Assembly: GCF_005930475.1 (NCBI RefSeq)
Contig: NZ_SJEW01000028.1
Span: 1 to 57,547 of the forward strand
Length of the DNA: 57,547 nucleotides
Reading direction: 5' to 3'
Source: Modestobacter altitudinis
GTDB lineage: Bacteria; Actinomycetota; Actinomycetes; Mycobacteriales; Geodermatophilaceae
Shown: piece by piece, positions 10,355 to 22,876 of the stretch
Position numbering within the stretch: the first letter of the stretch is position 1
Layout of the letters: each line of letters opens with the position of its first letter
The notes under the pieces: generated by a model
The model's database searches: none
What the model saw: the letters and a program-made list of their open reading frames with translations, nothing else
What the model was told of the DNA's origin: nothing
Translations under genes and position numbers: made by a program

Positions 10355-11227
10355 ATGACGCGGCCCGCCGACGGTCAGCACGGCATCCTGGTGCTGTCCT
10401 GCCAGGATGCGCCAGGCATCGTGCACGCGGTCTCCGGACTGCTCGTGCAGGAGAAGTGCACGATCGTGGAGAGCCACCAGTTCGACAGCCTCTCCAGCGG
10501 CATGTTCTACATGCGCGTGGAGTTCCGGCACGTCGACGGGGCGCCGCTGGACCTGCCCGCCCTGCGAGGCGCCTTCGAGGAGACGGCCCAGCGCTTCTCG
10601 ATGAGCTGGCGACTGGCCGACGCCGCGGAACGGCAGCGGGTGCTCATCATGGTCAGCCAGTACGCGCACTGCCTCAACGACCTGCTGTTCCGCAACTCGG
10701 TGGGCGAGCTCAACCTCGACGTCGTCGCGGTCGTGTCCAACCACCCGACCCTGCAGAGCACCGCAGACTTCTACGGTGTCCCCTTCCACCACGTCCCGGT
10801 GACCCGGGAGACCAAGGCGGACGCCGAGGCGGCGCTGCTCGACATCGTCCGCGAGGAGCGGGTCGAGCTGGTGGTGCTGGCCCGGTACATGCAGATCCTG
10901 TCCGACGACCTGTGCCGCCAGCTGGGCGGCCGGGCGATCAACATCCACCACTCGATGCTGCCGAGCTTCAAGGGCGCCCGCCCCTACCACCAGGCCCACG
11001 CCCGGGGGGTGAAGTTCATCGGCGCGACCGCGCACTACGTCACCGCGGACCTCGACGAGGGGCCGATCATCGAGCAGGAGATGCTGCGCGTGGACCACTC
11101 GTCGACCCCGGAGCAGCTGGCCGCCCGCGGCCGGGAGGCCGAGACCCGCGCCCTCGCGCACGCCGTCCGCTGGCACACCGAGAACCGGGTGCTCATCCAC
11201 GGCAACCGCACCGTCGTCTTCGAGTGA
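10355..11227 (+). CDS. purU: formyltetrahydrofolate deformylase
   Basis: 290 aa from ATG 10355 with GTGGAGGAG upstream. An N-terminal ACT domain (about residues 10-85) is followed by the formyl-transferase fold with catalytic residues N196, H198 and D234 (AINIHHSMLPSFKGARPYHQAH and TADLDEGPIIEQ). It hydrolyses 10-formyl-THF to formate and THF. Convergent with the pabBC-folD-metF set. In a THF-dependent demethylation pathway this is the step that releases the methyl carbon as formate and regenerates free THF. Confidence 0.93.
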   Translation: MTRPADGQHGILVLSCQDAPGIVHAVSGLLVQEKCTIVESHQFDSLSSGMFYMRVEFRHVDGAPLDLPALRGAFEETAQRFSMSWRLADAAERQRVLIMVSQYAHCLNDLLFRNSVGELNLDVVAVVSNHPTLQSTADFYGVPFHHVPVTRETKADAEAALLDIVREERVELVVLARYMQILSDDLCRQLGGRAINIHHSMLPSFKGARPYHQAHARGVKFIGATAHYVTADLDEGPIIEQEMLRVDHSSTPEQLAARGREAETRALAHAVRWHTENRVLIHGNRTVVFE

Positions 11228-11285
11228 GCTGACCGACCTCCGGCGGGCGGTGGGGGACACCCCGGTCGACTGCCCGTCGAGCTCT

Positions 11286-13106
11286 TCACCCGGTGGCGCG
11301 GGAGGCCTCCCGGTCGTGCCCGTCCCGGTCCGGGCGGGGCAGGAGGGGGACCAGCCGCGCTGCCCGCCAGCCCCGCAGCGAGCTGAGCACCGCGAGCTCC
11401 TCCGCGAGGACGAGGTCCTCGACGTGCAGCACGCGTTCGTGCAGCCGGCCGAGGTCCAGCAGGCGGCCGCGCTCGACCCCCGGGAGGCAGCCCGACGAGG
11501 TCGGCGGTGTCCACCACCGGCCGTCGAGCCGGACGGCGAGGTTGGCGATGGTGGTCTCGGTGAGCTCGCCGCGCTGGTTGACCAGGACGACGTCGTCGGC
11601 CTCCGGGTGCCGCAGCGCCCGGGTCCGGTAGGGGTCACGGCGGGTCGTCTTGTGCTGCAGCCAGGGACTGTCCGCGTCCACCGGCTCGTGGTCCACCACC
11701 AGCCCGACCGGGCCGGGACCCACCCCGGGGAGGTCGCTCGCCTCGGCCACCACGTGCCCGGTCCGGTCCAGCACGACCCGCACGCGCGCCGGTCCGGCGT
11801 GCCCGGCGACGGCCTGCCGGACCAGCGCCGGCACGGCGTCGCGGTCGAACCGGAACCCGAACCAGTCGGCCGAGTCGGCCATCCGGGCGAGGTGGCGGTC
11901 GAGGTTGCGGGGGCCGCCGGCCGGGAGGTGGGCGAGGGTCTCCACGAGCCGGTGGTCGGCGACGTCGTGACCGAGCACGGCGGCCTTCGCGAGCAGCTCG
12001 GCCCGTTCCCGGGCGGGGTCCGATCCCCAGGTGATGCCCCCGCCGGCGCCGTAGACGGCCGCGCCCGACGCCCGGTCGACCACGGCCGTCCGGATCGCCA
12101 CGCTGAACCGGGCCCGGAACGGCGCGCCCGGCGGGGCGACGAGCCCGATCGCGCCGCAGTACACGCCCCGGGGCGTCGGCTCCAGCTCGCGGATCAGCTG
12201 CATGGTGCGCTGCTTGGGCGCCCCGGTGACCGAGCCGCAGGGGAAGAGCGCGCCGAACAGCTCGGGCAACCCGACGTCCGGCCGGATCCGGGCGCTGACC
12301 TGCGAGGTCATCTGCCAGACCGTCGGGTACCGCTCGACGGCGAGCAGCTCGTCCACGGTCACGCTGCCGACCTCGGCGACCCGGCCGAGGTCGTTGCGCA
12401 GCAGGTCCACGATCATCACGTTCTCGGCCTGCTCCTTGCCGCTGGCGCGCAGTGCCCGGCGCTGCTCCTCGTCCTCCGCGGTCGTCCGGCCCCGGGGAGC
12501 GGTGCCCTTCATCGGGCGGGTGCGCACCTGGTCGCCCACCCACTCGAAGAACAGCTCGGGGCTGGCGCTGGCCACCACGTGCCGGCCGAGGTCGAGGAAG
12601 GCGTTGTGGGCGCCGCGCTGGGCGAGTGCCAGGCGGTGGTAGAGCGCCTCGGTACCGCCGGTCACGGTCGAGCGGAGCCGGTCGGTGAGGTTGCACTGGT
12701 AGGTCTCGCCGGCGGCGATCCGCTCACGGACAGCACGGACGGCGCGCGCGTGGGCGGCATCGGTCCAGTCCGGGCGCCACGTGGCCGGCTGCACCGTCGG
12801 AGGTGCGGACCCGGTCAGCGGGTCCACCCGTGCCGGCTCGTCGCACAGGCCGAACCACACCAGCGGCGCCTGCCCCGGGCTCCAGCCACCCGGCAGCTGC
12901 GGGTCCAGGCCGGAGGCCGCCTCGTAGGACACGAACCCGTAGGCCCAGCTCCCCGCCTCGGTCGCCTCGTGCACCGCCTGCAGCACACCGGCGACCTCGT
13001 CGGTCCGGGTCGTGCTGAGCACCCGGTGCGGAGTGGGGCAGAGCAGGGCCTCGCCGCGGACCAGGTCGTCGAACCGCGCCCACGGCCGGCCCCCGGCCGG
13101 GGCCAT
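11286..13106 (-). CDS. pabB: aminodeoxychorismate synthase component I fused to aminodeoxychorismate lyase
   Basis: 606 aa. Residues about 100-385 form a chorismate-binding domain (YQCNLTDRL, MKGTAPRGRT, LLRNDLGRVAEVGSV, FPCGSVTGAPK, YGAGGGITWGSDP). Residues about 395-606 form a class IV aminotransferase (PabC) domain with the PLP lysine in LQHKTTRRDPYR and the ELTETTIANLAV and GCLPGVERG segments. It makes p-aminobenzoate, the folate precursor; the PabA glutaminase is not in the window. Its ATG overlaps the folD stop by one base (TGATG), so it is coupled to folD and metF. Linking pABA supply to C1-THF enzymes fits a high demand for folate. Confidence 0.9.
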   Translation of the reverse strand: MAPAGGRPWARFDDLVRGEALLCPTPHRVLSTTRTDEVAGVLQAVHEATEAGSWAYGFVSYEAASGLDPQLPGGWSPGQAPLVWFGLCDEPARVDPLTGSAPPTVQPATWRPDWTDAAHARAVRAVRERIAAGETYQCNLTDRLRSTVTGGTEALYHRLALAQRGAHNAFLDLGRHVVASASPELFFEWVGDQVRTRPMKGTAPRGRTTAEDEEQRRALRASGKEQAENVMIVDLLRNDLGRVAEVGSVTVDELLAVERYPTVWQMTSQVSARIRPDVGLPELFGALFPCGSVTGAPKQRTMQLIRELEPTPRGVYCGAIGLVAPPGAPFRARFSVAIRTAVVDRASGAAVYGAGGGITWGSDPARERAELLAKAAVLGHDVADHRLVETLAHLPAGGPRNLDRHLARMADSADWFGFRFDRDAVPALVRQAVAGHAGPARVRVVLDRTGHVVAEASDLPGVGPGPVGLVVDHEPVDADSPWLQHKTTRRDPYRTRALRHPEADDVVLVNQRGELTETTIANLAVRLDGRWWTPPTSSGCLPGVERGRLLDLGRLHERVLHVEDLVLAEELAVLSSLRGWRAARLVPLLPRPDRDGHDREASRATG

Positions 13107-21418: not shown

Positions 21419-21466
21419 GGTCCGGGGCCGGCCGGCGGGGGAGTCCCCGCCGACCGGCCCCGGACC
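21419..21466 (-). terminator. very strong hairpin after ligM
   Basis: A 22-bp stem with one mismatch (21419-21440 against 21445-21466) and a GAGT loop, 10 bases past the ligM stop. It should terminate or attenuate ligM transcripts before the downstream paralogue, or protect the ligM 3' end, giving unequal expression of the two demethylases. Confidence 0.85.
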
Positions 21467-21475
21467 ACCGCGGGG

Positions 21476-22876
21476 TCAGCTGGCCGCCGCGCTCCGCCAG
21501 CCGCCGTGGTACTCGCTCCGGGCGGTCTCCGCGTACGGGGCCGGGCTCACCACGGCGCGCACGGCGAACTGCTCGTGCGGCTCGACGTTCGACTTGCCGC
21601 TGCCGCCGTCCGGCTCGCCCCAGACGACCCGGACCTCGGCCCCGATCGGCACGTTGGGGTCGACCGTGGCCAGCGACAGCCCCTTGCGCTCGTTGGCGCT
21701 GTAGCCGGTGAACAGCGACGCGCCGACCACCGTGCCGTCGGCGTCGATCACCGAGTCGAAGTTCGACGACCCGTAGTTGGCGTTGGGCAGGTCGAACACC
21801 TGGTACCCCGGTGCGGGGGCGACGATCCCGCCGAACAGCTTCGTCATGTCCTCGTCGTCCCAGGCGAGGGTCACCTTGCGGCGCTGGCTGGCCGGGTCGA
21901 TGGCCTCCAGCGCGTCCCGGCCGATGAAGTCGTGGTCGAACTTCACGAACGAGCCGTAGCCGAGCTCCCAGGGGTTGAGGTAGTAGTCCTCGATCCGCTC
22001 GGAGACGAAGCTGCCCGCCAGCGCGTTGGTCGCCTCGTAGCCGTTGGCCGGGAGCCACTCGCGGTAGGCCCGGAGCTCCTCCGCGGTGTAGATGGCCGGC
22101 AGCGGGGAGGGGATCCAGCCCGACTCGAGGGTGTTGGAGGAGTAGGCGCGCGACCCGCACGGCTCCAGCCCGAACTCCGCACCCGCCTCGAGGATGGTCT
22201 CGCGCACCTTCTCATAGGACTCGTAGGGGCCCCAGATCTCCAGGCCCGGCGCGCCGGCCATGCCGTGCCGCAGGGTGCGCACCTTCTCGCCGCCGATGTT
22301 CATCTCCGACATGCGGAAGAACTTCAGCTGCTCCAGGTCGCCGCCGTGGAGCTTCTCGATCACCGGCCAGGCGTTGGGGCCCTGGATCTGGAACCGCCAC
22401 ACGTCGCGGCTCACGGCCTTGCCGTAGGGCCGCGACGACGAGCGCGGGTCGTTGCGCACCTCGACGTCGTAGCCCGTGGAGCCCTGGAACTCCAGCCAGT
22501 TGGCGACCGGGGCCCGGCCGACGAAGACGTAGGAGTCCTCGGCGAGGTGGAAGAGGATCCCGTCACCGATGACCCCGCCCTCGGGCGAGACCGGGACGAA
22601 CTGCTTGGCCATGTTGACCGGGAAGTTGGCCACGCTGTTGATGCCGGTGTCGGAGATCAGCTTCAGCGCGTCCGGCCCGGAGATCCAGGTGTTGTACATG
22701 TGGTGCGACTGGTCGAAGAGCACGGCGGTCTCCCGCCAGGCCTTCTGCTCCCGCCGCCAGTTGGTGAACTCCGAAGGCACCACCGGGTAGATGTAGGTGC
22801 CGATCTGGGAGTTGCGCAGCATCCCGACGGTGTCACCGGTCTGGTCGAGGAGCTCCTGCAGGTTCTTCGCGGTCAT
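21476..22876 (-). CDS. ligM: tetrahydrofolate-dependent vanillate/3-O-methylgallate O-demethylase
   Basis: 466 aa from ATG 22876 (an ATG two codons upstream at 22882 is possible but too close to GAGGA). It reads as LigM along its length: [32 protein letters not shown] (H59), [12 protein letters not shown] (R121, LigM Arg122), [14 protein letters not shown] (Y245, LigM catalytic Tyr247), [26 protein letters not shown] and EYHGGW near the end. It moves the aryl methyl group to THF, giving the free phenol and 5-methyl-THF. Divergent from the liv importer; sites C and D of the shared motif lie upstream. Confidence 0.92.

Follow-up and report, generated by a model that had tools for sequence, protein, structure and literature searches.

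The window considered here is a 57,547-nucleotide stretch of Modestobacter altitudinis DNA (assembly GCF_005930475.1, contig NZ_SJEW01000028.1, positions 1 to 57,547). It encodes two proteins of the LigM/DesA family, called A and B in the following, together with the folate genes metF, folD and purU. A LigAB-type dioxygenase and the tautomerase, hydratase and aldolase of the 4-oxalomesaconate route are also all present in the window. In our view the region is probably a gene cluster for breaking down S-type (syringyl) methoxyaromatic acids, in which tetrahydrofolate (THF), not oxygen, would remove the methyl groups. An earlier note, made from the sequence alone, had reported the demethylases, metF, folD, purU and ligAB, with ligAB flanked by the demethylases on one side and the folate genes on the other; all of these genes were found where it had located them, in that arrangement. 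It had further proposed an actinomycete system of THF-dependent demethylation and one-carbon (C1) oxidation which is tied to ring cleavage and plausibly completes syringate catabolism. This proposal is supported, and LigK, LigU and LigJ can be added to it.

Protein B is a LigM and, by homology, a vanillate/3-O-methylgallate O-demethylase. It scores 881 bits on the curated LigM model (cut-off 580) and 610 bits on the DesA model (cut-off 800), and it shares 66.5% identity with LigM of SYK-6. The LigM cut-off is not exclusive, as three DesA rows also pass it (616–642 bits), yet these score 841–901 bits on the DesA model. In a FastTree phylogeny of 157 rows, B and SYK-6 LigM are grouped with a support of 1.0; in an IQ-TREE phylogeny of 41 rows the grouping obtains 88/100, not starred. 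Active-site positions, given in LigM numbering, were counted over 51 LigM rows (at least 63% identity) and 78 A rows (at least 55% identity), with five weaker rows omitted. Y247, R122, Y31, H60, Q165, E215 and W256 are conserved in all 51 rows of the LigM clade and in B. In the LigM structure papers, R122 is reported to hold the substrate carboxylate and Y247 to be the catalytic residue. A methyl-transferring tyrosine is mentioned in the accessible part of PMC9296663.

Protein A is probably a THF-dependent demethylase belonging to a third clade of the family. The earlier description of both proteins as LigM/DesA-type stands for family membership and for B; as a statement on function it is not supported for A, which forms a separate clade with an altered pocket. 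A carries a GCV_T domain (PF01571, 124 bits), scores 557.2 bits on DesA and 473.5 bits on LigM, and shares 45.1% identity with LigM and 49.6–49.8% with three DesA proteins of sphingomonad plasmids. The equivalent of Y247 is present in 78 of 78 A rows, as are E215, W256 and H60. In the 157-row tree DesA joins LigM (support 0.915), and 81 of the 82 A rows fall with three near relatives on one side, at a weak support of 0.574. The 41-row tree, which comprises 13 A rows, groups A with two near relatives (86/99) and DesA with LigM (83/94), neither starred. Both outgroups are long-branched, so the root is soft. When A and DesA were constrained to group (40 rows, GcvT removed), the tree was 23.7 log-likelihood units worse (p-AU 0.0144, AU denoting the approximately unbiased test).

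The curated cut-off and the AU test rule out A as a DesA, and its score on the LigM model, too, lies below the curated cut-off. Glycine-cleavage GcvT, sarcosine oxidase and DmdA were considered for both proteins, but A and B lie far below the model cut-offs (PRK00389, 76 and 91 bits against 300; soxA, 50 and 54 against 1164; DmdA, 45 and 42 against 410). The earlier note had raised membership in the GcvT, sarcosine or dimethylsulfoniopropionate (DMSP) enzymes as a reading that could overturn its own. This was not borne out: A and B score far better on LigM/DesA, and B groups with SYK-6 LigM.

Some relatives of A deserve separate mention. A protein from an Acidobacteria metagenome-assembled genome (MAG; L144, 8061-9467) is 56% identical to A and falls outside the A side in the 157-row tree; it was left out of the 41-row tree. 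Its R122 and Q165 are LigM-like and position 31 is F. The Modestobacter genome itself (G000) encodes two further family relatives, 41.6% (L046, G000:C117:72357-73667) and 34.5% (L047, G000:C91:28310-29494) identical to A. The catalytic tyrosine of L047 is absent in the alignment.

The methylenetetrahydrofolate reductase (MTHFR) of the window is atypical. It reaches only 54.5 bits on TIGR00676 (cut-off 293.7) and shares 29–31% identity, over part of its length, with the other MTHFR of the genome. Its top match in the PDB is 7xg9 (E = 1.4e-34, the next match being at 7.9e-09), presumably the Sphingobium/SYK-6 enzyme linked to LigM. That Sphingobium MTHFR is reported to run from 5-methyl-THF to methylene-THF, and many other bacteria to have similar gene sets (PMC12585457). 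The window enzyme may likewise run 5-methyl-THF oxidation. Second copies of metF, purU (G000:C91) and folD (G000:C84) lie elsewhere in the genome. Two purU genes exceed the cut-off, and contig C91 with the other copy bears further GcvT-domain genes. The earlier note had suggested a survey of the family for this cluster. Among 112 family genomes, with window-type MTHFR defined by at least 55% identity, B-type LigM and this MTHFR occur in the identical 31 genomes of six genera. The corresponding chance of coincidence, ~2e-28, applies only if genomes are independent, which they are not, and is uncorrected for relatedness. The extra copies elsewhere and the shared set of genomes together indicate that the C1 link is not due to chance.

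Two further observations concern folate genes. Thirteen LigM-free family genomes (G051, G049, G048, G111, G040, G064, G059, G044, G054, G027, G045, G056 and G102) have an MTHFR that is 49–52% identical to that of the window. In ten of them it lies ~6–7 kb from a long-frame GcvT-domain gene, which hints at a second C1 system. Furthermore, genes of folate synthesis (pabB/pabBC, folP, once folE) are repeatedly found close to the demethylases in A loci, as if enlarging the folate pool.

LigK passes one model (Table 1), remains under the cut-off of another (TIGR02798, 279.2 bits, cut-off 304.5) and is 51% identical to Sphingobium FldZ. The LigU/GalD-type protein is the sole PrpF match in the genome and is 55.8% identical to Sphingobium FldA. 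The LigJ-type protein has no NCBIfam match at 1e-10 and is 70% identical to FldW, named ‘4-oxalomesaconate hydratase’. By analogy, the alpha/beta hydrolase is a candidate ester hydrolase for the ring-cleavage product of 3-O-methylgallate, and the muconolactone-isomerase-like protein a candidate isomerase. The DesC/DesD step of Novosphingobium is of the same kind, according to the accessible part of PMC8091115.

Conservation of the cluster was followed at three scales. In the family, 28 of the 31 LigM genomes also have A (>70% identity), and 27 of these have it at most 20 kb from LigM; in G055, A is on a different contig from LigM. A search of 397 genomes of the order, with at most four candidates scored per genome, retrieved A at 65% identity or more in 28 (24 in the family, four outside). 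All 28 have a second family member, 45–50% identical to A and thus in the LigM-like range, which is unlinked to A in two of the four genomes outside the family. A pattern scan of named genomes, keeping the best 80 of 136 relatives, covered Geodermatophilaceae, Pseudonocardia, Amycolatopsis, Saccharomonospora, Microbacterium, Arthrobacter and others, as well as the Acidobacteria MAG. Locus counts were made on 65 A loci with at least 19 kb, omitting 15 with shorter flanks. The 21 loci from Geodermatophilaceae contain MTHFR in 20 cases, ligAB in 20 and LigM in 19. The 44 remaining loci contain a match of any kind to MTHFR in 30 (eight only 27–31% identical), LigM in 25, galB or ligJ in 21, ligK in 21 and ligAB in 14. 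In most relatives examined the cluster genes remain linked, or are re-linked after rearrangement.

The hydrolase adjoins ligAB, and the histidine kinase adjoins the cluster, in many relatives; the response regulator is 65–98% identical across their clusters. The transporter genes, divergent from A and B, adjoin LigM in most family clusters. Plasmid pRop44186_a of Rhodococcus opacus carries A, LigM, metF, purU, folD, ligAB, the hydrolase, the isomerase (78% identical to that of the window), a LigK-like aldolase, a PIG-L protein, pabB, fdhF and folP/folE. Its LigM (L057, 9300-10925) is clear, with 899 bits, and is annotated as a hypothetical protein. In the genome G091, of the same genus, the relatives of A are only 44–50% identical, and one locus (L038, G091:C1:1259000-1278900) has three A-like genes by folD, purU and a window-type MTHFR.

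Table 1. Features of the cluster, with positions in the window
Feature	Position	Strand	Evidence
purU, 10-formyl-THF deformylase	10355..11227	+	PRK06027 397.7 bits, cut-off 223
pabBC-like aminodeoxychorismate synthase I / lyase fusion (p-aminobenzoate for folate)	11286..13088, start approximate	-	TIGR00553 346.5 bits > 328.4, PF00425, PF01063
folD, methylene-THF dehydrogenase/cyclohydrolase	13106..13966	-	PF02882, PF00763
metF-like atypical MTHFR	14007..14870	-	PF02219 44.6 bits, cut-off 24 (longer open reading frame)
Sensor histidine kinase	14921..16816, start uncertain	+	Open reading frame judged by eye
LuxR/NarL-type response regulator	16813..17475	+	Open reading frame judged by eye
Alpha/beta hydrolase	17639..18376	+	PF12697 69.2 bits
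Muconolactone-isomerase-like protein	18378..18656	+	TIGR03221 81.6 bits, under cut-off 130.6
ligA, class III extradiol dioxygenase alpha subunit	about 18737..19069, start uncertain	+	PF07746 119.4 bits
ligB, class III extradiol dioxygenase beta subunit	19062..19910	+	PF02900; PRK13366 371.6 bits, cut-off 317
Protein A, third-clade LigM/DesA-family protein	19965..21326	-	PF01571; DesA 557/800, LigM 473/580 bits
Protein B, LigM	21476..22876	-	PF01571; NF047885 881 bits, cut-off 580
Branched-chain-type ABC (ATP-binding cassette) transporter: livG 23490, livF 24287, livH 24998, livM 25879	23490..26913	+	By eye
Substrate-binding protein of ABC transporter	26941..28206	+	PF13458 161.9 bits
ligK, 4-carboxy-4-hydroxy-2-oxoadipate aldolase	31906..32607	+	PRK09262 307.3 bits, cut-off 179
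ligU/galD-type PrpF-family tautomerase	32604..33683	+	PF04303 325 bits
ligJ-type 4-oxalomesaconate hydratase	35454..36473	+	PF04909 184.5 bits

Two further pairs of genes were noted in the window. Upstream (5600-8362) lie an alcohol dehydrogenase-like gene and an aldehyde dehydrogenase, possibly for methanol or aromatic aldehydes. The top model of the former is the N,N-dimethyl-4-nitrosoaniline (NDMA)-dependent type, with a score under the cut-off. At 43518-45796, a ferredoxin-reductase-like gene is followed on the same strand by a cytochrome P450, which could be a further oxidative demethylase or hydroxylase.

From these genes a route can be proposed, predictive in its substrates, order of steps, direction of the MTHFR, uptake and regulation. 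The ABC transporter would import the aromatic acid. A would take off the first methyl group, most likely converting syringate to 3-O-methylgallate, and LigM would remove the second to give gallate; it may serve vanillate too. Ring opening by LigAB would then follow, with 3-O-methylgallate and/or gallate as its substrate. The methyl-ester ring product would be brought to 4-oxalomesaconate by the hydrolase and the isomerase-like protein, and LigU, LigJ and LigK would process 4-oxalomesaconate to pyruvate and oxaloacetate. Meanwhile, the methyl groups would be carried as 5-methyl-THF, which the atypical MTHFR would oxidise to methylene-THF. FolD would convert this to formyl-THF and PurU would release formate and free THF.

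Several observations weigh against this route, whose likeliest entry compound is syringate and whose first step is assigned to A by position, not by family. Y31, R122 and Q165 are conserved in 51 of 51 LigM rows and in all three DesA rows, but are altered in most or all A rows. Position 31 is F in 78 of 78 A rows, position 165 is E in 77 (the exception being L144), and position 122 is occupied by H (58 rows), W (11), L (four), R (three, including L144), P (one) or Q (one). Given the changes at 122 and 165, syringate as substrate is a guess from context. Moreover, the genomes G013 and G024 possess LigM, ligAB and MTHFR and lack A; eight of the 65 A loci lack LigM, MTHFR, ligB, galB and ligJ within about 10 kb. 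The roles of the hydrolase and the isomerase-like protein are drawn by analogy. The genes lie on both strands and in several units; the region is a gene cluster, not one operon. Finally, the R. opacus formate dehydrogenase FdhF as query finds only partial matches of 28–33% in the Modestobacter genome. A might instead act on another methoxyarene (without a carboxylate at the LigM position, an aldehyde, or with a shifted methoxy group), leaving LigM alone to feed ring cleavage. We consider this the less probable choice, though one to be taken seriously: the altered pocket, the separate clade, the A loci without gallate genes and the two A-free clusters all agree with it. It fits less well with the position of A, which in the majority of clusters within the family adjoins ligAB and the hydrolase, and which has galB or ligJ nearby in 21 of the 44 long-flank loci outside the family. 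In addition, DesA exceeds its curated cut-off in none of the 112 family genomes.

A cluster serving mainly vanillate, with LigM producing protocatechuate for LigAB and the classical 4,5-pathway, appears unlikely. B is a LigM, as this would require, and LigA barely reaches the model of the protocatechuate 4,5-dioxygenase alpha subunit (TIGR02792, 108.7 bits, cut-off 108.6; PRK13377, 106 bits, cut-off 173). However, the beta subunit of protocatechuate 3,4-dioxygenase (PcaH) is encoded above cut-off elsewhere in the genome, whose completeness is given as 99.49%. A LigC-type dehydrogenase is represented in the genome by generic partial matches only (best 38% over query residues 8-151); the query, from Arthrobacter keyseri, is taken to be LigC from its gene neighbours. 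In Comamonas pBHB, too, the stretch inspected has no gene annotated as LigC. LigI (query 54.6% identical to an annotated 2-pyrone-4,6-dicarboxylate (PDC) hydrolase) has no match in the genome, in a search with no positive control genome. The combination of LigAB with LigU, LigJ and LigK, and no convincing LigC or LigI, points to gallate or 3-O-methylgallate more than to protocatechuate, and gene content thus favours syringate/3-O-methylgallate/gallate over the conversion of vanillate to protocatechuate. Slightly less likely still is A as a demethylenase or other GcvT-type C1 transferase resembling BrdA, SesA or dicamba demethylase. The family does include THF-dependent demethylenases of berberine and sesamin, as well as dicamba demethylases, and actinomycetes are the source of some of these enzymes (accessible parts of PMC5547118 and PMC9404685), and the trees were built without BrdA, SesA and Dmt sequences. 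Against it stand the gene context, ring cleavage to 4-oxalomesaconate, and the retention in 78 of 78 A rows of SesA Y221, if this corresponds to LigM Y247 as its spacing to a conserved glutamate suggests. In the accessible part of PMC5547118, Y221 is conserved in Sphingobium BrdA1 and BrdA2, and no other BrdA is named. That metF, folD and purU serve ordinary folate metabolism and are nearby by chance is very improbable, even though they have the folate-synthesis gene pabBC in their midst. Second copies and co-occurrence with LigM speak against it: all three genes are duplicated elsewhere, the family genomes with the MTHFR are the very ones with LigM, and the three genes remain associated with the demethylases in rearranged loci and in other genera.

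The syringyl cluster, our preferred reading, can be compared with characterised systems. It shares with the LigM and S6MTHFR module of SYK-6 a LigM paired with an atypical MTHFR, the latter matching 7xg9 best. It differs in its actinomycete host, in having PurU in the cluster, in the adjoining two-component system and ABC transporter, and in the extra demethylase A. SYK-6 reportedly uses the formyl-THF ligase LigH instead of PurU. The accessible part of PMC9296663 names ligH among C1 genes. DesA, the syringate O-demethylase, is of the same family as A. Moreover, DesA-bearing sphingomonad plasmid loci (L058 and L059) repeat the order hydrolase, DesA, metF, purU and folD, with ligAB in L059. In contrast, A falls under the DesA cut-off and outside the DesA and LigM group, and has other residues at positions 31, 122 and 165. 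As far as the accessible part of PMC12314914 goes, the linear pathway by which Pseudomonas sp. NGC7 degrades syringate (VanA1B1, MgaAB, MgaC, MgaD, GalBCD) also has a LigAB-type dioxygenase, an alpha/beta hydrolase, an isomerase-type protein and 4-oxalomesaconate processing. However, the isomerase-type protein there is SnoaL-like, here of the muconolactone isomerase family, and demethylation by VanA1B1 gives formaldehyde whereas here THF would accept the methyl group.

The earlier note overstated the novelty of an actinomycete THF route, since relatives are in print. In their accessible parts, PMC5547118 describes BrdA, a THF-dependent relative, in Rhodococcus and Arthrobacter; PMC9404685 reports Dmt06 as identical to an Actinomadura protein; and PMC9296663 includes a LigM-type protein in a Micromonosporaceae MAG and proposes THF-dependent O-demethylation by DesA-like aminomethyltransferases of Solirubrobacterales MAGs. 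One of the latter is reported to be 69.5% identical to DesA, whereas A is at ~50% and lies outside the DesA clade. The LigM and MTHFR module is known from Sphingobium, and the genome survey of such gene sets cited in PMC12585457 (Yu 2025) may already include actinomycetes. Thus the LigM and MTHFR concept is known; added here are a near-complete actinomycete syringyl locus, its conservation, and a third demethylase clade with frequent LigM partnership. Among the literature matches listed, we recognised none on THF-dependent demethylation in Geodermatophilaceae; the one match for this family together with O-demethylases mentions a vanillate demethylase reductase in passing. A THF-dependent syringate demethylase of a Microbacterium has reportedly been described, which our literature search did not confirm.

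Bacterial breakdown of syringyl lignin has been studied mainly in sphingomonads and a few pseudomonads. Tentatively, and as quite possible rather than established, we suggest that A is the founding member of a third class of THF-dependent aryl O-demethylases, one belonging to actinomycetes. Without shared history with DesA in this respect, it could have come to act at the syringate step or on an unrecognised methoxyarene, binding its substrate without the arginine at 122 and with an invariant glutamate at 165. It may be the standing LigM partner in a methyl-to-formate module of Geodermatophilaceae, Pseudonocardiaceae, Micrococcales and other actinomycetes. If this picture is true, a near-complete, oxygen-sparing and formaldehyde-free route in soil actinomycetes would extend the candidate lignin degraders by a large group, and a demethylase class with a different pocket would be available for engineering. 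Lignin methyl groups would feed actinomycete C1 metabolism. The co-occurrence of these genes yields testable predictions for Modestobacter, Blastococcus, Geodermatophilus, Klenkia and Rhodococcus opacus.

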